From NCBI GenBank assembly GCA_031267855.1, contig JAIRYH010000074.1:1-8424 (forward strand): a stretch of 8,424 nucleotides of DNA. Reading direction: 5' to 3'. The translations under genes were made by a program, and so were the position numbers. Below the pieces are notes generated by a model. It was given only the letters and a program-made list of their open reading frames with translations, did not search any database and was not told the DNA's origin. Source of the DNA: Prevotellaceae bacterium. Its GTDB lineage: Bacteria > Bacteroidota > Bacteroidia > Bacteroidales > UBA932. Shown here in pieces: positions 561 to 8,354 of this stretch (positions are counted from its first letter, which is position 1; every line of letters starts with the position of its first letter).

Positions 561-698
561 AAGCCCTCGGGGGCGGTTTTAACACATGTTGAAAGCATGC
601 CGAAGGGCTTCGGGACGGTTGCCCGTGTCCGGGGAAACTGCCAAAACGTCTTATCGGAGCGATGCCTGCACCCGAGCAACGGCCAAAAAGTCGTGTGC

Positions 699-869
699 GG
701 GGGTTGTTAGTGTCCAGGCAAGCAGCAATCCGGTTCGCGCGGGGGTTGTTAGTGTCAAGGCAAGCTGCAATCCGGTTCGCGCGGGGGTTGTTAGTTTCAA
801 GGCAAGCGGTAATCCGGTTCGCGCGGGGGTTGTTAGTGTCAAGGCAAGCGGCAATCCGGTTCGCGCGGG
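699..869 (+). repeat. Array 1, subfamily A: four near-identical 42-bp units
   Basis: Units begin at 699, 741, 783 and 825, each opening with GGGGGTTGTTAGT and closing with CCGGTTCGCGC. They differ at only a few bases. This homogeneity implies recent tandem duplication or gene conversion within the block. The shared GGGTTG anchor keeps it in phase with the flanking units. Confidence 0.9.
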
Positions 870-1079
870 GGTTGCCCAAGCATGTACAACCGCCAAAACA
901 TTTTGCAGGGCGTTTGCCCAAGCATGTACAACCGCCAAAACATTTTGCAGGGCGTTTGCCCAGACATGTACAACCGCCAAAACAGGTTGCAGGACGGTTG
1001 CCCAAGCATGTACAACCGCCAAAACATCCTGCAGGGCGTTTGCCCGGGCATGTACAACCGCCAAAACATCCTGCAGGAC
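870..1079 (+). repeat. Array 1, subfamily B: five 42-bp units
   Basis: Units begin at 870, 912, 954, 996 and 1038. Each has the core CATGTACAACCGCCAAAACA. Unit junctions read GCAGGGCGTTTGCCC or GCAGGACGGTTGCCC; the first can fold as GGGC-GTTT-GCCC. Apart from the anchor, the body is quite different from subfamily A although the period is identical. Confidence 0.9.
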
Positions 1080-1114
1080 GGTTGCCCCGGCCGGGACAAC
1101 GGCCGCGCCAGCCC

Positions 1115-1146
1115 AATCCGTAAATCCGTAAATCTGTAAATCCGTA
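1115..1146 (+). repeat. Octamer tandem repeat (AATCCGTA x4)
   Basis: Four consecutive 8-bp units (1115-1122, 1123-1130, 1131-1138, 1139-1146), the third with T for C. One further copy and a degenerate one occur at 1229-1244, next to the mfd promoter. The same octamer in reverse complement forms the array at 6238-6272. Confidence 0.85.
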
Positions 1147-1185
1147 AATTGTTCCCACGAAGCGCCAAAGTCCCTTCATGCACCC

Positions 1186-1220
1186 TTAATTCCTAATTCT
1201 TAATTCCTAATTCTTAATTC
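1186..1220 (+). repeat. Heptamer tandem repeat (YTAATTC x5) upstream of mfd
   Basis: Five 7-bp units alternate TTAATTC and CTAATTC, so the true unit may be 14 bp. The array stops two bases before the -33 element of the mfd promoter. The same heptamer precedes rpoN at 4782-4816. Confidence 0.9.
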
Positions 1221-1222
1221 AA

Positions 1223-1254
1223 TTTGTCAATCCGTAAATCTTTAAATAACTTTG
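1223..1254 (+). promoter_or_regulatory. Bacteroidota-type -33/-7 promoter of mfd
   Basis: TTTG at 1223-1226 and TAACTTTG at 1247-1254 are separated by 20 bp, matching the -33 TTTG and -7 TAnnTTTG consensus of the primary sigma factor in Bacteroides. The predicted transcription start, near 1259, lies only about 7 nt before the ATG at 1266, so the mfd mRNA would be almost leaderless. Octamer-like copies (1229-1244) fill the spacer. Confidence 0.75.
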
Positions 1255-1265
1255 CAGCCTTAAAA

Positions 1266-4200
1266 ATGGATGCACAAACATTAGTCGGTCAATTTGCCGC
1301 ACAGGAAGCCTGCCGGCAACTGCATGCGCACGTCGCTGCGAATGACGGCGGCGTCATATCCGTGCGCGGGCTGCACGGGTCGGCGCGGACGCTGGCGGCG
1401 GCAGCCCTTTTTTCCGCCGGTACGCGGAACACGGTGGACGGCGCACGGAATACAGCGCCGGCCGGCGCCCCTCCGTGTACCGTGCACCGGACACCGGACA
1501 CCGTTTTATATGTGGCGCCCGACCGCGATGCCGCCGAATACCGCTGCCACGACCTCTGCCTGTGGTGCGACCCCGACCGGGTTTTTTTCCTGCCCTCCTC
1601 GTTCAGGCGCAGTATCGAATACGGCCAGCCCGACGCGTCGAACCGGGTGTTGCGCACCGCCGCGCTGAATGCCCTGCGCCACCGCGGGCAGTGCATGGTG
1701 GTGACCTTTCCCGAAGCGCTGGCTGAGCTGGTTGTTTCGCGTGAAGAGATGGCGCGGCGCCTGCTGCCGCTGCACGCCGGCGAGCGCATTTCCATGGATT
1801 TCCTTTGCGATACGTTGCTGTCCTGCGGCTTCAGCCGGGTTGATTTTGTGACGGAGCCGGGGCAGTATGCCGTGCGCGGAAGCATTATCGACGTTTTCTC
1901 CTTTGCCGGCAACCTCCCCTGCCGCATCGACTTTTTCGGCAACGAGGTGGAGAGTATCCGCACGTTCGGCGTCAACACGCAGCTGTCGGAGCAGCTGCTG
2001 CCGGAGATGGAGATTATTGCGGATGTACGGGAGGCCGCCGGCGATGCCGGACAGGCGACGCTGTTTGAATTTGCGGGGCCGGCAACCGTGTGGGTGGAAG
2101 AATGGAAGTATACGCTCGGCGTGCTGGAGCGGCTGTGGGAAAAGGAAGCGCTGCGCGGCCGCCTGATGTCGCCGGAAACGTTGCGGACGGCGGCGGGCGA
2201 CGGGCCGCTGACGGCGGGAAAGGAATCAATGGTCGTCTTCACCGCCGGGGCGGAACACGGTGCACCGCGCACCGCCGGCCGTGCGCCGCTGACCGTGCGC
2301 CGGCTGTCTTTCGGCACGTCGCCGCAGCCGGCGTTCAACAAGAACTTCGAACTGCTCGCCGCCGACATCACCGCACACGCCGAACAGGGCTACCGGACGT
2401 TTATTTTCTCCGAAAACAGTTCGCAGGCAACGCGGCTGCAGTCCATTTTCTCGTCCATCACGAAAGAGCCGGTACCGTTTGAATTTGTTTCCCTGACGCC
2501 CCACGAGGGATTTATCGACCATACGCTGCGCTGCTGCTGGTATACCGACCACCAGCTGTTTGAGCGCTATCACCGGGCACCGCTGCGGCGCGCCGTGGAG
2601 AAGAGCGAGCGGCTGACGTGGCAGGAATTTTCCGGCATGCAGGCGGGCGATTATATCGTGCATGTCGACCATGGCATAGGCGTGTTCGGCGGACTGGTCA
2701 AGATCAATGTGGACGGGAAGATCCAGGAGGCCGTGCGGCTGATTTACCGCGACAACGATATCCTGTTTGTCAACATCCACGGCCTGCACCGCATTGCAAA
2801 GTACAAAAGCAGGGACAGCGAGCCGCCGAAGATAAACAAGCTCGGCAGCGCCGTATGGCAGAACATGACGCAGTCGGCAAAGCGCAGGGTGAAGGATATT
2901 GCCCGCGAACTTATCGTGCTCTATGCCCGGCGCAAAAACACCAGGGGCTTTGCCTTCGCCGCCGACAGCTATATGCAGCACGAGCTGGAGGCGTCGTTTG
3001 TTTATGAAGACACGCCCGACCAGCTCAAGGCCACGGAGGACGTGAAAGCCGACATGGAGCGCCCCTGCCCGATGGACCGGCTCATCTGCGGCGACGTCGG
3101 CTTCGGGAAAACGGAAGTGGCCGTCCGTGCGGCATTCAAGGCCGCTGCCGACGGCAAGCAGGTCGCCGTGCTGGTGCCCACAACGATTCTGGCGCTGCAG
3201 CATTATAAGACATTCTCTGCCCGGCTGGCCGGCTTCCCGGTAACGGTGGATTACGTGTCGCGCCTGCGTGCTGCCGGACAGGTGAAGAAAACACTGGAGG
3301 CGCTGGAGCAGGGACAGGTCGATATTGTTATCGGGACGCACAGGCTGCTGGGAAAGGATGTGCGGTTCAAAGACCTCGGGCTGCTGGTGGTCGACGAAGA
3401 GCAGAAGTTCGGCGTGGCGGCAAAAGAGAAGCTGCGCCGGCTGAAGCTTCATGTCGACACGCTCGCCATGACCGCCACGCCTATTCCGCGCACGCTGCAG
3501 TTTTCACTGATGGGCGCGCGCGACCTGTCGCTCATCCACACGCCCCCGCCCAACCGCCACCCGATTGCGACGGAAGTGCACCCGTTTCACGAGCGCATTA
3601 TCCGCGACGCCATCCGCTGCGAAGTGCAGCGCGGCGGACAGGTGTTTTTCGTGCACAACCGCGTGCAGGACATACAGGCCATGGCCGACACCGTGCGCCG
3701 CATTTGCCCGGAGGCGTCCGTCGGCGTCGGGCACGGGCAGATGCCGCCCGAAGAGCTGGAAAAAGTAATACTGGAATTTATGAGCGGCGACTTCGACGTA
3801 CTGCTCTGCACAACGATTATCGAAAACGGACTGGACATACCGAATGCCAATACGATTATCGTGAACGGCGCGCAGAATTTCGGGTTGAGCGACCTGCACC
3901 AGCTGCGCGGCAGGGTGGGACGCTCCAACCGGAAAGCATTCTGCTACCTGCTCGCGCCGCCGCCGGCAGCCCTGACCGACGACGCCCGCCGCCGCCTGAA
4001 CGCCATTGAAACCTTTTCGGAACTGGGCAGCGGCTTCAATATCGCCATGCAGGATCTGGACATCCGCGGCGCCGGCAATATCCTGGGCGGCGAGCAAAGC
4101 GGCTTCATCGCCGACATCGGCTTTGAAACCTACCGGAAAATCCTGGATGAAGCGCTGGCAGAACTGAACAGCGAACTGCCGGCTGACGGCGCCGGCAACG

Positions 4201-4679
4201 AGGCCGGCAGCCCGGCGTCCGCCGCCATGGAAGTTGCCGACTGCGCCATAGATACCGACATGGAGATACTCATCCCCGACAGCTATGTCGGCAATGCTAC
4301 CGAAAAGCTGCGCCTCTACAAGGAACTGGACAATATTACCGACGAGCCGCAACTGCAAAAAATGATCGCCGAACTGACCGACCGCTTCGGCGCCCTGCCG
4401 CCCGAAGTGGAGCAGCTGTGCAACATCGTCCGGCTGCGGCGCACGGCAATGTCGCTGGGGTTTGAAAAAATAACGCTCAAGAACAGGCTGATGGTGGCCT
4501 GTTTCGTGAGCAACCAGCTGTCGCATTATTACCGCTCGCCGCTATTCGCCCGTATATTGGGATATATCCAGGAGCATCCCAAAACCTTTACCGTAAAAGA
4601 ACAGCACCATAAACTGTTTCTGACGGTCAAAAACGTCCCCACCGTCCACCGCGCCATTGAGGTGCTAAAAGACTTTTAG
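1266..4679 (+). CDS. mfd: Transcription-repair coupling factor Mfd
   Basis: Mfd is a cytoplasmic DNA translocase that pushes stalled RNA polymerase off DNA and recruits UvrA to start transcription-coupled nucleotide excision repair. The 1137-residue product is close to the family's usual length (about 1150). An N-terminal UvrB-like region (about 1-350) is followed by the RNA polymerase-interacting domain (about 455-520, with GDYIVHVDHGIGVF at 461-474). The RecG-like motor carries Walker A GDVGFGKT (609-616), DEEQ (710-713), TATPIPRT (736-743), TIIENGLDIPNANT (850-863) and QLRGRVGRS (879-887); a C-terminal regulatory domain follows. The start is ATG 1266; the frame extends up to a TTG at 1224, but that overlaps the promoter. 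No Shine-Dalgarno is seen. Odd points: residues about 52-80 and 329-347 are encoded by degenerate heptad repeats, and the stop lies in a 15-bp repeat. Confidence 0.97.
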   Translation: MDAQTLVGQFAAQEACRQLHAHVAANDGGVISVRGLHGSARTLAAAALFSAGTRNTVDGARNTAPAGAPPCTVHRTPDTVLYVAPDRDAAEYRCHDLCLWCDPDRVFFLPSSFRRSIEYGQPDASNRVLRTAALNALRHRGQCMVVTFPEALAELVVSREEMARRLLPLHAGERISMDFLCDTLLSCGFSRVDFVTEPGQYAVRGSIIDVFSFAGNLPCRIDFFGNEVESIRTFGVNTQLSEQLLPEMEIIADVREAAGDAGQATLFEFAGPATVWVEEWKYTLGVLERLWEKEALRGRLMSPETLRTAAGDGPLTAGKESMVVFTAGAEHGAPRTAGRAPLTVRRLSFGTSPQPAFNKNFELLAADITAHAEQGYRTFIFSENSSQATRLQSIFSSITKEPVPFEFVSLTPHEGFIDHTLRCCWYTDHQLFERYHRAPLRRAVEKSERLTWQEFSGMQAGDYIVHVDHGIGVFGGLVKINVDGKIQEAVRLIYRDNDILFVNIHGLHRIAKYKSRDSEPPKINKLGSAVWQNMTQSAKRRVKDIARELIVLYARRKNTRGFAFAADSYMQHELEASFVYEDTPDQLKATEDVKADMERPCPMDRLICGDVGFGKTEVAVRAAFKAAADGKQVAVLVPTTILALQHYKTFSARLAGFPVTVDYVSRLRAAGQVKKTLEALEQGQVDIVIGTHRLLGKDVRFKDLGLLVVDEEQKFGVAAKEKLRRLKLHVDTLAMTATPIPRTLQFSLMGARDLSLIHTPPPNRHPIATEVHPFHERIIRDAIRCEVQRGGQVFFVHNRVQDIQAMADTVRRICPEASVGVGHGQMPPEELEKVILEFMSGDFDVLLCTTIIENGLDIPNANTIIVNGAQNFGLSDLHQLRGRVGRSNRKAFCYLLAPPPAALTDDARRRLNAIETFSELGSGFNIAMQDLDIRGAGNILGGEQSGFIADIGFETYRKILDEALAELNSELPADGAGNEAGSPASAAMEVADCAIDTDMEILIPDSYVGNATEKLRLYKELDNITDEPQLQKMIAELTDRFGALPPEVEQLCNIVRLRRTAMSLGFEKITLKNRLMVACFVSNQLSHYYRSPLFARILGYIQEHPKTFTVKEQHHKLFLTVKNVPTVHRAIEVLKDF
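1423..1507 (+). repeat. Inverted pair of heptad arrays around a palindrome, inside mfd
   Basis: Left arm: 7-bp units CGCGGAA, CACGGTG, GACGGCG, CACGGAA (1423-1450). Right arm: CCGTGTA, CCGTGCA, CCGGACA, CCGGACA, CCGTTTT (1473-1507), which is approximately the reverse complement of the left arm. Between them is a perfect 14-bp palindrome, GCGCCGGCCGGCGC (1455-1468). The segment encodes residues about 53-80 of Mfd, where conserved Mfd proteins go almost directly from the AALF helix to the next strand (VAPD), so it reads as an in-frame insertion. Confidence 0.6.
2251..2306 (+). repeat. Second degenerate heptad array inside mfd (CCGTGCR-like x8)
   Basis: Eight consecutive 7-bp units run CGGAACA, CGGTGCA, CCGCGCA, CCGCCGG, CCGTGCG, CCGCTGA, CCGTGCG, CCGGCTG. 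All begin CCG or CGG. CCGTGCA/CCGTGCG is the heptad also seen at 1480-1486. It encodes residues about 329-347, a poorly conserved basic linker between the N-terminal domains. Confidence 0.5.
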
Positions 4680-4707
4680 AATATAGACTTTCAGAATATA
4701 GACTTTC
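4678..4707 (+). repeat. 15-bp direct repeat overlapping the mfd stop codon
   Basis: Two perfect copies of AGAATATAGACTTTC (4678-4692 and 4693-4707). A third partial copy, GACTTTT at 4671-4677, lies within the last codons. The TAG stop of mfd (4677-4679) therefore sits in the repeat, and the C-terminal KDF is encoded by repeat-like sequence. Confidence 0.8.
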
Positions 4708-4756
4708 ACCCTCGTCGAACATCCGCCGCACGTTCGACGAACATCTAGTTGAAAGT
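4702..4756 (+). terminator. Nested hairpin downstream of mfd
   Basis: TCGTCGAAC (4712-4720) pairs perfectly with GTTCGACGA (4732-4740) around an 11-nt loop. An outer stem, ACTTTCA (4702-4708) with TGAAAGT (4750-4756), can close it. No T-tract follows, so this may be a factor-dependent or processing end rather than an intrinsic terminator. It separates mfd from the rpoN promoter. Confidence 0.5.
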
Positions 4757-4781
4757 TGCGGCAAGCGTGTCATGGCGACAG

Positions 4782-4823
4782 CCAATTCCTAATTCCTAAT
4801 TCCTAATTCTTAATTCTTATTTG
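4782..4823 (+). repeat. Heptamer tandem repeat (YTAATTC) abutting the rpoN promoter
   Basis: Units CCAATTC, CTAATTC x3 and TTAATTC (4782-4816), then a degenerate TTATTTG (4817-4823), directly join the -7 element. The position expected for the -33 box is thus made of repeat DNA, and no TTTG is found there. This is the same heptamer as upstream of mfd. Confidence 0.88.
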
Positions 4824-4831
4824 TATCTTTG
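4824..4831 (+). promoter_or_regulatory. -7 element of the rpoN promoter
   Basis: TATCTTTG matches TAnnTTTG exactly and is followed by CAGC, as at mfd. The rpoN ATG at 4839 is only 7 nt beyond the element, so the transcript should start at or within a few bases of the start codon. No good -33 box is seen. Confidence 0.65.
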
Positions 4832-4838
4832 CAGCGTT

Positions 4839-6230
4839 ATGCTCAAACAAACGCTTCAACAAAAGTTACAGCAGAAGCTGTCGCCGCTGCAGATACAAAC
4901 AATCAGGCTGGTTACATTGCCCGTCATGCAGTTTGAGCAGCGGGTGAAAGAAGAGCTGGAAGAAAATCCCGCCCTCGACGAAACCGACGACGAAACCGAC
5001 GAAATCAACACGTCCGGCATCGTGCCGCCCGCCGACGATACGCCGGCATACAAGCTCTATACAAGCCGGCCGGCGCCGGCCGCAAAGCCGGAATTTCCGA
5101 CCCTGCAGGTCAGGGAAAATTTCCGCCAGCAACTGGAAACACAATTAAGTTTTAACGGACTGGACGACCGCGAACGCGCCCTCGCCTCGTTCCTCATCGG
5201 CAGCCTCGACGACGACGGCTACCTGCGCAGCGACCTGTCGTCGGTGGCAGACGATATTGCGTTCCGCCTGGGCGTGGAAACCACCGGACAGGAACTGGAA
5301 AAACTGCTGTCGCTCATCCAGGACTGCGAACCGCCGGGGACCGGGGCGCGCAATCTGCGGGAGTGCTTATTGATTCAATTGCGCCGCCGCGACGTGCAAA
5401 CGGACGCGCAGCGCCTCGCCGGGCAGGTTCTGGAACATTGCTTTGACGACTTTGTCAAAAAACATTACGATAAAATACAGTCCCGATTGTCGGTCGGCAA
5501 AGCGGCGCTGAAAGCGGCTGTGGAGGAAATCATCAAACTGAATCCGCGCCCGGCGGGCAGCAGCAGCGATTCCTTTAACGAGCAGGCGCGCCAGATTGTG
5601 CCCGATTTCCTGCTCGAACCGAATGACGGCGAACTGCAGCTTTCGCTGCTGCGCGGTAACGTCCCCGCCCTGAAACTGAACAGACGCTACATGCAAATGA
5701 TCGACGGCAAAACCGCCGCCACTGCCGAAGAGCGCGCCGCCGCAGCATTTGTCAAACAAAAAATGGAAGCGGCGGCACGCTTTATCGAGGCGATCAAACA
5801 ACGGCAGCAGACCTTGCTGAAAACCATGCAGGCAATCATTGACTACCAGCACGACTACTTCGCCGACGGCGACGAAACCAAGCTGCGCCCGATGGTGCTG
5901 AAACATATTGCCGCCGTCACGGGCTATGACATTTCAACCGTTTCGCGTGTGGTGAGCAGCAAATTTATTCAAACGCATTTCGGTATATTTCCGCTGAAAT
6001 ACTTTTTCTCGGAAGGCGTGAAAACCGCCTCCGGCACGGAAGTCTCGACGCATGAAATGAAAAATATACTGCAGGAAAGCATCGCCGGCGAAGATAAAAA
6101 ACAACCGCTGGCCGACCGGGAACTGATGGCCGTGCTGAAACAGCGCGGCTATGCTATAGAACGCCGCACGGTGGCAAAGTACCGTGAACAGTTAAACATT
6201 CCCGTAGCCCGGCTGCGAAAAGAACTGTAA
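4839..6230 (+). CDS. rpoN: RNA polymerase sigma-54 factor RpoN
   Basis: Sigma-54 directs RNA polymerase to -24/-12 promoters that open only when an AAA+ enhancer-binding protein is active; no such activator lies in this window. The 463-residue product has the usual order: a glutamine-rich region I that inhibits isomerisation (about 1-48, MLKQTLQQKLQQKLSPLQIQ), an acidic linker (LDETDDETDE, about 47-56, from a 12-bp DNA repeat), the core-binding domain (about 90-290, with GSLDDDGYL at 121-129 and EPPGTGARNLRECL at 164-177), a DNA-binding helix-turn-helix region (about 351-385, HIAAVTGYDISTVSRVV) and a C-terminal RpoN box ERRTVAKYRE (441-450) that reads the -24 element. I chose ATG 4839; the frame opens at a TTG at 4821, but that lies in the promoter. 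The gene appears to be transcribed from its own promoter. Confidence 0.96.
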   Translation: MLKQTLQQKLQQKLSPLQIQTIRLVTLPVMQFEQRVKEELEENPALDETDDETDEINTSGIVPPADDTPAYKLYTSRPAPAAKPEFPTLQVRENFRQQLETQLSFNGLDDRERALASFLIGSLDDDGYLRSDLSSVADDIAFRLGVETTGQELEKLLSLIQDCEPPGTGARNLRECLLIQLRRRDVQTDAQRLAGQVLEHCFDDFVKKHYDKIQSRLSVGKAALKAAVEEIIKLNPRPAGSSSDSFNEQARQIVPDFLLEPNDGELQLSLLRGNVPALKLNRRYMQMIDGKTAATAEERAAAAFVKQKMEAAARFIEAIKQRQQTLLKTMQAIIDYQHDYFADGDETKLRPMVLKHIAAVTGYDISTVSRVVSSKFIQTHFGIFPLKYFFSEGVKTASGTEVSTHEMKNILQESIAGEDKKQPLADRELMAVLKQRGYAIERRTVAKYREQLNIPVARLRKEL

Positions 6231-6237
6231 AGTATAA

Positions 6238-6272
6238 TTTACAGATCTATGGATTTACAGATTTACAGATTT
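6238..6272 (-). repeat. Octamer tandem repeat (TTTACAGA) between rpoN and upp
   Basis: TTTACAGA at 6238-6245, a variant TCTATGGA at 6246-6253, then TTTACAGA at 6254-6261 and 6262-6269, plus TTT. The unit is the reverse complement of TCTGTAAA, the octamer of the array at 1115-1146, so this is the same family inverted. The array ends in CAGATTTG (6266-6273), one base off a -7 element, so it might act as a weak upp promoter. Confidence 0.8.
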
Positions 6273-6287
6273 GGCTGGCGCATCGGG

Positions 6288-6322
6288 AACTCATAATTCA
6301 TAACTCATAACTCATAACTCAT
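6288..6322 (+). repeat. Heptamer tandem repeat (AACTCAT x5) running into the upp start codon
   Basis: Units AACTCAT, AATTCAT and AACTCAT x3. The last two bases of the final unit are the AT of the upp ATG (6321-6323). Copy-number change would alter the leader length and anything upstream, but would leave the start codon intact. Confidence 0.88.
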
Positions 6323-6974
6323 GAAACAATTTATCCTGTCCGACCGTCCATCTATCTTCAATCGCTTTATTGCCGAGCTGCGCGACAGCGCCATACAAAA
6401 AGACCGCCTGCGCTTTCGCCGCAACATGGAACGCGTGGGTGAAATCTTTGCCTATGAAATCAGCCGGACACTGCCGTATGCCACGCAGGAAGTAACCACT
6501 CCGCTGGGCATTTCGTCCGTCGTCCTGCCCGACGAATCCCTCGTGCTGGCCACGATCCTGCGCGCAGGGCTGCCCCTGCACCAGGGGTTCCTGAATTTCT
6601 TCGACCGCGCCGACAATGCTTTCATTGCCGCCTACCGCAAATACAGGAAAGATTATAAATTCACGATTCAGCTGGAATACATATCCTCGCCGGATATCGA
6701 AGGAAAAACGCTGGTGCTGATGGATCCGATGCTGGCTACCGGCGAGTCCATGCTGCTTACCTACCATACCCTGCTGAAAAAAGGCCAGCCGCGGCACACG
6801 CACATCGTGTCGCCCATTGCCAGCAAGTACGGCGTGGAGTATTTGCACACCAACCTGCCGCAACGAAACATCACCCTGTGGTTCGGCGCGGTGGACGAAG
6901 AACTGACCACCAAATCGTACATCGTGCCCGGACTTGGCGACGCCGGCGACTTAGCCTACGGGGAAAAGAACTAA
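6321..6974 (+). CDS. upp: Uracil phosphoribosyltransferase
   Basis: Upp converts uracil and PRPP to UMP and pyrophosphate in cytoplasmic pyrimidine salvage. The 217-residue product has the normal family length (about 210). ILRAGLPL (79-86), the PRPP-binding loop DPMLATGES (135-143) and the uracil-binding C-terminal motif YIVPGLGDAGD (200-210) are all present. In the PRPP loop, residue 142 is E where E. coli Upp has G (DPMLATGGS). ATG 6321 is the natural start; no Shine-Dalgarno precedes it, only the heptamer array. rpoN ends 90 bp upstream in the same direction, so read-through from rpoN is possible. The stop TAA (6972-6974) is the first triplet of the inverted repeat shared with the convergent mtgA. 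Confidence 0.96.
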   Translation: MKQFILSDRPSIFNRFIAELRDSAIQKDRLRFRRNMERVGEIFAYEISRTLPYATQEVTTPLGISSVVLPDESLVLATILRAGLPLHQGFLNFFDRADNAFIAAYRKYRKDYKFTIQLEYISSPDIEGKTLVLMDPMLATGESMLLTYHTLLKKGQPRHTHIVSPIASKYGVEYLHTNLPQRNITLWFGAVDEELTTKSYIVPGLGDAGDLAYGEKN

Positions 6975-7055
6975 GAACTAAGAGTTAAGAACTAAGAGTT
7001 GGCTGACGCCACTGTGCGCTTGTCGCAGTTCTTAGTTCTTAACTCTTAGTTCTTA
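6972..7055. terminator. 26-bp perfect inverted repeat made of heptads, between convergent upp and mtgA
   Basis: 6972-6997 is the exact reverse complement of 7030-7055, leaving a 32-nt loop. Each arm is a tandem of 7-bp units (AGAACTA alternating with AGAGTTA). The left arm begins with the upp stop codon. The right arm contains the mtgA stop codon (7039-7041, minus strand) and the codons for its last residues. By position it could act as a bidirectional terminator. The stem is AT-rich and lacks a clear T-tract, so that role is inferred. Confidence 0.7.
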
Positions 7056-7737
7056 TCAAGTCGGGTTGCGGCAGTTTTTTCATCAGGTTCATAATGGCTT
7101 TTTGCCGGCGCCGCAAATAAGCCGTTGGTTTCGCCGGGTTGCGGTGCAGCGGATTGGGAAGGCATACCGCCAGCATGGCCGATTCTTCGGCGGTCAGCTT
7201 TGCCGCCGGCTTTTTATAATAGTATTGTGCGGCAGCTTCCGCCCCGTACACGCCCCGGCCCATTTCCGCCACATTCAGGTAAACCTCCATGATGCGCTCT
7301 TTGCTCCAGAGCAATTCAATCAATAACGTGTAATAAGCCTCCAAACCCTTGCGCAGCCACGAACGATGCGGCAGGAGGAAGACATTTTTGGCGACCTGCT
7401 GCGTGATGGTGCTTGCGCCGCGCTTCTGCTTCCGGTCTTCGTCGCGCCACGCCTTGTCCAGCTCTATCCAGTCGAACCCGTGATGCTGCTCAAACCGGTT
7501 ATCTTCCGATGCAATCACGGCCCGCACCAGGTGCGGCGCGACTTTTTCCAGCGGCGTCCATGCGTAGCGTGTTTTCCACAGGCTGTCGCCGCGATGTTCC
7601 CACGAGCGGAGGCACATCAACGGCGTGCGGTACACCGGCAACCAGCGCAAAGCCGCCACCTGCAGCAATGACAGCACAAACAGGCCCGGCAGCACGTAAA
7701 GCAGATAAAACGGCAAACGACGGAATATATTTCTCAT
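7039..7737 (-). CDS. mtgA: Monofunctional biosynthetic peptidoglycan transglycosylase MtgA
   Basis: MtgA (family GT51) polymerises lipid II into glycan strands at the outer face of the cytoplasmic membrane and has no transpeptidase domain. The 232-residue product has a basic N-terminus and one membrane anchor (about 8-30, FYLLYVLPGLFVLSLL). GT51 motifs follow: EDNRFEQHHGFDW (78-90, catalytic Glu78), KRGASTITQQVAKNVFL (105-121) and RKGLEAYYTLLIELLWSKERI (129-149, second catalytic Glu expected at 133), then EVYLNVAEMGRGVYGAEAAA (151-170). Length is typical for the monofunctional enzyme. The start is ATG at 7737, 18 nt below a -7 element. It converges with upp. The last residues (IRTKS) and the stop are encoded by the heptad inverted repeat, so the natural C-terminus may have been replaced or extended by repeat sequence. 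Confidence 0.95.
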   Translation of the reverse strand: MRNIFRRLPFYLLYVLPGLFVLSLLQVAALRWLPVYRTPLMCLRSWEHRGDSLWKTRYAWTPLEKVAPHLVRAVIASEDNRFEQHHGFDWIELDKAWRDEDRKQKRGASTITQQVAKNVFLLPHRSWLRKGLEAYYTLLIELLWSKERIMEVYLNVAEMGRGVYGAEAAAQYYYKKPAAKLTAEESAMLAVCLPNPLHRNPAKPTAYLRRRQKAIMNLMKKLPQPDLIRTKS

Positions 7738-7755
7738 AACCGGAAAATAATGCTA

Positions 7756-7763
7756 CAAAGATA
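7756..7763 (-). promoter_or_regulatory. -7 element of the mtgA promoter
   Basis: On the minus strand the bases read TATCTTTG, an exact TAnnTTTG match, followed by TAGC. The predicted start site is about 14 nt before the mtgA ATG. No clear TTTG is found 19-20 bp upstream. Confidence 0.65.
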
Positions 7764-7955
7764 AGGAAAACAATTCTGGCGCTGCACCTCAAAAAAATAC
7801 AGTCATGATGAAAAAAAACCTGCAGATAAAAAATAAAGCAATATATCTGCGCCGTTATTTATGTGCTCCCTGTCATTTTGAAATTGATATTAAGAACAGA
7901 TCGCTTTAACTTTTATTCTGCCGGGTTTCTGAAATCGGGAAAATTTCTACCGGTA
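7764..7955. other. AT-rich gap with no convincing gene
   Basis: The contents are a 7-bp inverted repeat, GCAGATA (7822-7828) with TATCTGC (7844-7850), and the palindrome TACCGGTA (7948-7955) abutting the 42-bp array. A 34-codon frame at 7805-7909 has no promoter or family support. Confidence 0.45.
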
Positions 7956-8165
7956 ACACGTGTCGGAACCGTCCCGAAGCCCTTCGGCATACCTCCGACA
8001 CGTGTCGGAACCGTCCCGAAGCCCTTCGACATACCTCCGACACGTGTCGGAACCGTCCCGAAGCCCTTCGGCATACTTCCGACACGTGTCGGAACCGTCC
8101 CGAAGCCCTTCGACATACCTCCGACACGTGTCGGAACCGTCCCCGAGGGCTCGGGCATACTTGCG
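7956..8165 (+). repeat. 42-bp tandem array 2 (five units, two palindromes each)
   Basis: Units start at 7956, 7998, 8040, 8082 and 8124. Each is built as a 14-bp perfect palindrome CCGACACGTGTCGG, a 7-bp spacer AACCGTC, a 14-bp hairpin CCGAAGCCCTTCGG (5-bp stem, 4-nt loop) and a 7-bp spacer CATACCT. The first unit lacks the left bases of its palindrome. Units 1 and 3 read CGGCAT where 2 and 4 read CGACAT, suggesting an 84-bp duplication. The fifth unit is divergent but keeps the hairpin as CCCGA-GGGC-TCGGG. It is the same family as array 1, in the opposite orientation. Frames through it on both strands give peptides of 14-residue period (TRVGTVPKPFG and so on) that I treat as by-products. Confidence 0.93.
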
Positions 8166-8222: not shown

Positions 8223-8354
8223 TTAGAAAGGCAGGGATTTAATGATTGTTTCCACCGCGCTCCACAGCAGTTGCAGGTAGAGCGCAGCATTTTCATGCGC
8301 CGTGACATACAGCAGAAACAGCCGGACTCGTAACCAAAACAGGGTCTTTTTCAT
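8223..8354 (-). CDS. Possible 43-residue membrane-associated small protein
   Basis: ATG at 8354-8352 opens a frame to TAA at 8225-8223. It encodes MKKTLFWLRVRLFLLYV, then AHENAALYLQLLWS and AVETIIKSLPF. The basic start followed by a hydrophobic stretch (about 5-17) suggests a single membrane segment or signal anchor, and a second amphipathic stretch follows. I recognise no family. Support: a strong hairpin starts four bases after the stop, the frame ends before the repeats, and it is divergent from the gene at 8395. Against: it is short, and no TAnnTTTG element was found upstream on the minus strand. Confidence 0.4.
   Translation of the reverse strand: MKKTLFWLRVRLFLLYVTAHENAALYLQLLWSAVETIIKSLPF

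Follow-up and report, generated by a model that had tools for sequence, protein, structure and literature searches.

The contig JAIRYH010000074.1 of Prevotellaceae bacterium (GenBank assembly GCA_031267855.1; its 8,424 nucleotides were analyzed whole and are called the window here) carries two arrays of 42-bp repeats, array A at 561-1106 and array B at 7956-8165, and the question that the locus raises is what kind of element these arrays are and at which level, DNA, RNA or protein, they act, if they act at all. A first-pass annotation had described them as a single palindromic family in two inverted arrays. Our own reading, offered tentatively, is that they are lineage-specific, dispersed intergenic DNA repeats with paired palindromes two helical turns (21 bp) apart, which are helically phased and would act as DNA.

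The 42-bp unit is common to array B, in which it is repeated five times on the minus strand (ATGCCGAAGGGCTTCGGGACGGTTCCGACACGTGTCGGAGGT), and to the start of array A (561-644, plus strand, two units), and it contains two palindromes, A and B. Palindrome A reads CCGAAGGGCTTCGG or CCGAGGGCTCGG, palindrome B of array B reads TTCCGACACGTGTCGGAA in its full form, and their centres lie 21.0 bp apart. A copy of palindrome A (CCGAAGCCCTTCGG) at 7974-7987, for example, recurs every 42 bp, and an 18-mer of palindrome B at 7993-8010 has its centre between 8001 and 8002, at a distance of 21.0 bp from that of palindrome A. The first two units of array A are family members with other B palindromes, TTTTAACACATGTTGAAA at 577-594 and TTGCCCGTGTCCGGGGAA at 619-636. 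As the annotation had claimed, the likeness extends beyond the short palindrome: the 24 nucleotides ATGCCGAAGGGCTTCGGGACGGTT (597-620) are also present in the reverse complement of array B, and a covariance model containing two units of array B and none of array A scored 564-613 at E = 2.3e-9. With up to three mismatches allowed, GAAGGGCTTCGGNACGGTT is found five times in the window (602-620 on the plus strand; 7967-7985, 8009-8027, 8051-8069 and 8093-8111 on the minus strand), compared with 0.01 expected from dinucleotide shuffles. The repeat layout likewise confirms the 42-bp period in both arrays. The likeness to array B holds for 561-644 and fails beyond it; array A keeps a single 42-bp register across its 13 units, and the eleven at 645-1106 (plus strand) continue that register unchanged in other sequences, including subfamilies at 697-874 and 872-1087 for which the best covariance-model value was only E = 0.26.

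The family is dispersed through the genomes of close relatives. G001-G009 denote the nearest relatives of the window by mfd and mtgA, with mfd identities to the window of 67-81% in the eight that gave a match, compared with 54-62% in the seven other genomes tested. An exact-pattern scan of genome contigs (one genome per species, 84,980 species) returned one match, the metagenome-assembled genome of Prevotellaceae bacterium isolate Cd354_bin9 (G001), and BLAST with array B at E ≤ 0.001 gave 14 matches in G001, 8 in G002 and 1 in G005, which are three of 59 genomes with G001 included. A covariance model built from 13 units (two from the window, eight from G001 and three from G002), with the best 96 candidates per genome scored, gave 60 matches in G001, 63 in G002 and 25 in G006 at E ≤ 0.01, numbers that count matches rather than units, since both strands often score. 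Lower counts were obtained in G009 (6), G007 (5), G005 (3), G004 (2), G008 (1) and G003 (0), and these are possibly due to chance or convergence, E-values being rough; the remaining 50 of the 59 genomes had no match at this threshold. The first-pass suggestion of an interspersed intergenic palindromic family, as opposed to a local duplication, is therefore borne out by the dispersal in G001, G002 and G006. When 393 genomes from the order were scored for their best 14 candidates each, only G001 and G252 matched at E ≤ 1e-4; the G252 locus (L224, contig C21 of a 4.9-Mb genome) is a 21/42-bp palindromic array which by eye has another sequence, and from it the 21-bp palindromic habit may be wider than the close relatives. 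That array B derives from a phage or a plasmid was rejected, because it had no match among the phage and plasmid records searched and its exact core was found in none of the viral contigs. Four loci in G002 (L032, L034, L035 and L038) have similar flanks around arrays of this family, which we call the window class, and differing B palindromes; a small lipoprotein-like gene adjoins the array in the first three.

The relatives also bear on two details of the first description. The unit containing CCCCGAGGGCT is indeed located at 8141-8151, with its complement at 562-572, and had been read as a shared terminal unit and hence as a sign of a defined element. It belongs to the CGAGGGCTCG subtype of palindrome A, carried by the last unit of array B (8124-8165, minus strand), and since this subtype is internal within arrays of G001, G002 and G006 (L010, L011, L016, L034 and L225), it does not mark a boundary and does not support that reading. 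A reverse-complement match between the two arrays does exist, but their inverted orientation carries little meaning, because the two strands of a unit read almost alike and in several units the model matches both.

Palindromes A and B are phased at 21.0 bp and the pairs within them undergo compensatory change. In a test that used only palindrome A as its anchor (nine core variants; 48 distinct contexts, drawn from the window and from G001 and G002), pairing reached 6.4 and 6.9 of nine positions at +21.0 and -21.0 bp respectively, compared with 1.8-2.5 when the centre was displaced by 0.5 or 1 bp, the half-base displacements giving 2.2-2.5. Across 16 arrays in which dyads were picked by pairing, 53 of 107 spacings were 21 bp and 14 were 42 bp. 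For palindrome B, 51 distinct 18-mers taken without a pairing filter formed 299 Watson-Crick pairs out of 459, whereas 2,000 shuffles averaged 210.5 and never exceeded 235, and one pair position alone was occupied by GC 11 times, CG 11, AT 10 and TA 5. This palindrome retains TT..AA at its ends and a C-G pair inside, its centre often resembles ACGT, and its other pairs tend to change jointly; palindrome A is largely conserved across arrays. Thirteen aligned units had 38 cells changed on both sides, compared with 12.3 in shuffles, and a covariation score of 0.44 compared with 0.15, counts that can be inflated by relatedness of the sequences; palindrome A also co-varies among these units (GC with CG, and AU with GC). 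When folded as single-stranded DNA, part of array B gave a z-score of -8.0.

The exact 21-bp phasing is common to many arrays of other sequence, and we regard it as the more telling property. We sampled 1,143,298 bp from the nine relatives and 629,851 bp from 15 other genomes, with contigs picked by number; G001, G002 and G005 were sampled for matching array B, G004 and G009 were sampled deeper after arrays had been found in their first stretch, and G053, among the 15 others, supplied only 422 bases without G or C. Arrays of at least 80 bp with periods of 21, 41, 42, 63, 105 or 126 bp numbered 73 in the nine relatives and one in the 15 others (a 41-bp period in G012), which is a clade-wide excess of periods at about multiples of 21 bp; the 32 kb sampled from G008 contained none. 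Around the shortest of these periods, the nine relatives had 0 arrays of 20 bp, 35 of 21 bp, 3 of 22 bp and 7 of 23 bp. Among 70 arrays with 21-, 41- or 42-bp units (the window included), 13 were palindromic at p ≤ 0.01 (0.7 expected) and 25 at p ≤ 0.05 (3.5 expected), and a second dyad was found exactly half a unit away in 13 of the 32 arrays with 41- or 42-bp units, some of which are one family repeated. Palindromes are thus enriched but not universal, and the spacing is therefore what these arrays have in common. Most of the arrays are intergenic, with 67 of 78 overlapping genes by less than half against a gene coverage of 88%, a count in which array A of the window was scored as genic owing to an open reading frame (ORF) that spans it. 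The 23-bp arrays form a separate class, found once per sample in seven relatives (L048:15018-15105, L065:14318-14495, L125:10294-10413, L147:7633-7732, L155:13346-13469, L157:2423-2534 and L134:13-146), several with a hairpin by eye such as GAGCGGTTGCCCGCTCCTAGCCT.

A second class of 21-bp arrays is associated with a gene of about 220 aa, a family found through all-against-all comparison of array neighbours that has no Pfam or NCBIfam match over the cut-off. Matches to this gene, fragments included, number 11-47 in each of G001-G009 and 1-13 in G027, G028, G032, G033 and G037, and are lacking in 45 of the 59 genomes. In the contigs retrieved from the nine relatives, each of the ten full-length copies (for example L054:1548-2198, L065:438-1142, L145:12674-13336 and L043:6301-6939) is preceded, within the 600 bp upstream, by an array with a period of 21, 42 or 63 bp. 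Five of 11 partial matches are cut by a contig end, and the other six represent four loci, with a 21-bp array upstream in L148 and L155 and none in L104 and L152. A further 20 upstream regions (L204-L223), of which 12 are from outside the clade, were chosen solely from the coordinates of the gene; 18 had 2.6-16 copies of a 21-bp unit, the one from G037 had 2.4 copies and that from G032 had an 8-bp repeat. The 27 consensus units of this class are largely unrelated, with five of 351 pairs identical at 14 or more of 21 positions (best 16), compared with 1.3 in shuffles. Since these arrays have it too, spacing at 21 bp is not confined to the window sequence, and none of the ~220-aa gene matches listed lies next to a window-class array.

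The predicted structure of the ~220-aa protein (predicted local distance difference test score, pLDDT, 94.3) has an N-terminal helical region and a C-terminal part that, among the best 50 PDB matches listed, resembles fibronectin-III domains and related domains of receptors. One copy of the gene lies between a Mur ligase gene and mraY (both by Pfam), which suggests that the gene is dispersed by insertion. Growth of the array from a duplicated insertion site was rejected, as the unit was absent within 800 bp downstream at eight of eight loci tested (ten in hand), where the best matches were at shuffle level. A shared partner gene was also sought; none recurs adjacent to the ~220-aa gene, and the ten loci yielded one homologous neighbour pair, 0.7 and 3 kb away. 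Many matches in G002 begin at a contig end within the gene, suggesting that near-identical copies broke that assembly. The gene provides a concrete, unannotated handle for finding a partner of the arrays.

Several lines of reasoning lead from these observations to the DNA reading. Two-turn spacing recurs in sequences that are mostly unrelated, 41-bp units among them, which are compatible with the helix and which no reading frame allows; this points to the DNA helix. Because the centres are two helical turns apart, all palindromes of an array would lie on one DNA face, an arrangement that is also favoured by paired, co-varying palindromes and by mismatches without strand bias. We infer that the element acts as DNA, and that a binding protein and a benefit to the cell would be part of its role. 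The palindromes could be recognized by shape or by half-site by a dimeric protein that would load cooperatively on one helix face, as on a centromere or an iteron array; alternatively, they could fold as hairpins in a single-stranded state. The repeats would have spread through copying, copies within an array may be homogenized through slippage or unequal exchange, and the palindromes may be maintained by hairpin-templated copying plus selection. With slightly more reserve, we extend this to a wider proposal in which the lineage would keep genome-wide tandem arrays as a lattice almost free in sequence, with the 21-bp helical spacing retained: the window class would add co-varying paired palindromes, another branch would be a dispersed cassette in which the ~220-aa gene follows a 21-bp array with a sequence peculiar to it, and a partner protein would read the spacing. 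Should it be spacing and symmetry, and not sequence, that are conserved, repeats of this kind would escape searches by sequence; the compensated palindromes form a natural series for asking whether selection or hairpin-templated copying holds bacterial palindromes. No description of such arrays in Bacteroidales was found among the matches listed in the open-licence literature.

A number of results weigh against the DNA reading. The two relatives with 0 and 1 model matches (G003 and G008) have mfd identities of 79-81%, which indicates that the window-class family is dispensable. In 15 regions upstream of mfd or mtgA in relatives, no family array was present and the model found nothing at E ≤ 5, so that a fixed regulatory role is disfavoured and the arrays were rejected as a fixed mfd or mtgA regulatory element. 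These regions are not clean empty sites, because the neighbouring genes differ and the mfd region of G009 is only 499 bp long; two contain short unrelated 21-bp repeats (2.7 copies upstream of mtgA in G002 and 2.1 copies upstream of mfd in G007), and upstream of mfd in G007 and G009 there is a lone hairpin that by eye resembles palindrome A. Any function of the window-class arrays is, on both counts, dispensable or redundant. The palindromes of array A are largely lost past 645, and the array folded in three pieces gave z-scores of only -1.7, -1.2 and -2.3. The 13 units used for covariation were picked for at least six of nine B pairs and are hence biased, and two of five measures fail in them: pairs with two-sided change (162 of 500 shuffles as high) and further pair types (139 of 500 as high). 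Units within an array are copies, and phasing within one family can therefore be inherited rather than selected. Our searches found no protein partner of the window-class arrays, and gene orientation does not separate the DNA from the RNA alternative for this class.

A purely mutational origin is a strong rival, which we judge doubtful overall. Under neutral tandem proliferation, short DNA would be readily copied in tandem and hairpin template switching would keep the palindromes close to perfect, while the cell would gain nothing. Repeats of 7, 8 and 14 bp with many different sequences abound in these genomes, family arrays are missing at the 15 orthologous sites, and the mostly intergenic placement of the arrays is likewise in its favour. 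Simple slippage, however, predicts neither the sharp peak at 21 bp nor the half-unit palindrome pairs, the latter not all being independent.

An RNA element, in which transcribed hairpin arrays would serve as terminators, mRNA stabilizers or leader structures, is disfavoured and in our view unlikely. The array B hairpins are strong, and eight of the 14 window-class arrays with both neighbours present lie between co-directional genes (five ++ and three --, with three convergent and three divergent; eight further arrays have no neighbour on one or both sides). All orientation counts rest on crude ORF calls, and they came to 17 co-directional, 10 convergent and 14 divergent for the 41 arrays with periods that are multiples of 21 bp, and to 274, 80 and 88 respectively for a background of 442. 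A preference for divergent genes was considered and is true of all these arrays together (14/41); the window class (3/14) is close to background (88/442) and so is not set apart by orientation. In 15 of the 29 upstream regions of the second class, the motif TAnnTTTG, which we take to be akin to a -7 box, stands ahead of the array, and these arrays may therefore lie in leaders. Against this, ten of 27 second-class arrays have no 4-bp stem and the window has no Rfam match at the gathering threshold. RNA hairpins with G-U pairs were rejected, as neither class has a G-U preference: the 738 pairs in 16 window-class arrays comprise 640 Watson-Crick, 21 G-T, 18 A-C and 59 other pairs, and the near-equality of G-T and A-C gives no sign of one-strand RNA pairing, and in the second class there are 17 G-T and 27 A-C.

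Still less probable is a family of repetitive extragenic palindromic (REP) sequences or bacterial interspersed mosaic elements (BIMEs), to which the first-pass annotation drew an analogy, mobilized by a Y1 transposase (REP-associated tyrosine transposase, RAYT). What holds of this analogy is that REPs are short intergenic palindromes, dispersed and often paired (PMC3733652), and that the window class likewise has short, paired intergenic palindromes, repeated and dispersed in many copies. The genomic location expected of REPs, chiefly between co-directional or convergent genes, is compatible with the window class but does not decide the matter. In palindrome A, a stem of 6 bp surrounds a 2-nt centre and the start is rich in C; CGTC stands ahead of it only in some units (by eye). 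CGTC REPs lack a dedicated transposase, and their stems, 8-9 bp long, begin with AT and enclose loops of 4-5 bp, while GTAG REPs carry a GTAG tag (PMC3733652). The window class fits these REPs in neither stem, loop nor tag, its stems measuring 6-7 bp and its centres 2-4 nt; it also differs in forming regular tandem arrays phased at exactly 21 bp, and its palindrome B is hypervariable. A link to RAYT also fails on gene content, as Y1_Tnp (PF01797) is absent from seven of the nine nearest relatives (G002 and G004-G009) and present once each in G001 and G003, all counts from draft genomes, and 38 of 59 relatives have one.

That the repeats are coding (42 bp being 14 codons and 21 bp seven) is highly improbable, for although several frames are open through the window arrays, some second-class arrays lie inside ATG-started ORFs and a heptad peptide looked attractive in a few leaders, the 11 second-class arrays with such an ORF have 32 synonymous changes of 173 compared with 48 expected, four of 29 have stops in all sense frames and 41-bp units exist.

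In build, the window arrays appear to resemble plasmid iterons or the F plasmid centromere sopC, from which their many loci and hypervariable palindrome set them apart. Plasmid iterons are tandem repeats of about two helical turns that are read by a cooperative DNA-binding protein, with one sequence per origin beside the rep gene; the two-turn tandem build is alike, but the window lineage has many sequences at many intergenic sites. The short tandemly repeated repetitive (STRR) heptanucleotides of cyanobacteria are lineage-specific, genome-wide, short tandem repeats with a 7-bp unit without palindromes, and are comparable to the 7-bp repeats of this clade; palindromes set the window arrays apart. 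sopC is present at one site per plasmid, beside sopAB, with a single sequence, whereas the window class occurs at many loci per genome and each of its units has two palindromes, of which one is hypervariable. In sopC (parS-F), a unit of 43 bp is repeated twelve times in tandem, and a ParB dimer binds the 16-bp inverted repeat that every unit contains (PMC9178275); these dimensions are similar to the 42-bp unit and 16-18-bp palindrome of the window. Array B matched no plasmid record, and a search limited to the window found no parAB among the neighbouring genes. Clustered regularly interspaced short palindromic repeats (CRISPR) were ruled out, as each half of the unit recurs in array B and there are no unique spacers.

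The genes between the arrays are mfd, rpoN, upp and mtgA by Pfam, as first annotated. The mfd gene (TRCF; 1266-4679, plus strand) lies downstream of array A, and the start of mtgA (Transgly; 7039-7737, minus strand) faces array B at a distance of 219 bp. Just past array B, an ORF of 43 aa without a Pfam match (8226-8354, minus strand) belongs to a family (..QLLWAAVEKL..) also seen in L004, L010, L062 and L063; members are near window-class arrays in the window and in L004 and L010, both G001 loci. Between the genes of the window there are also 7-bp tandem repeats of several different sequences (1187-1220, 4784-4816, 6288-6322, 6966-6997 and 7027-7055), and the window has 8-bp repeats at 1115-1149 and 6237-6272. 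Repeats of both lengths are common in the sampled relatives, those of 7 bp occurring in L001 and other G001 loci as well.

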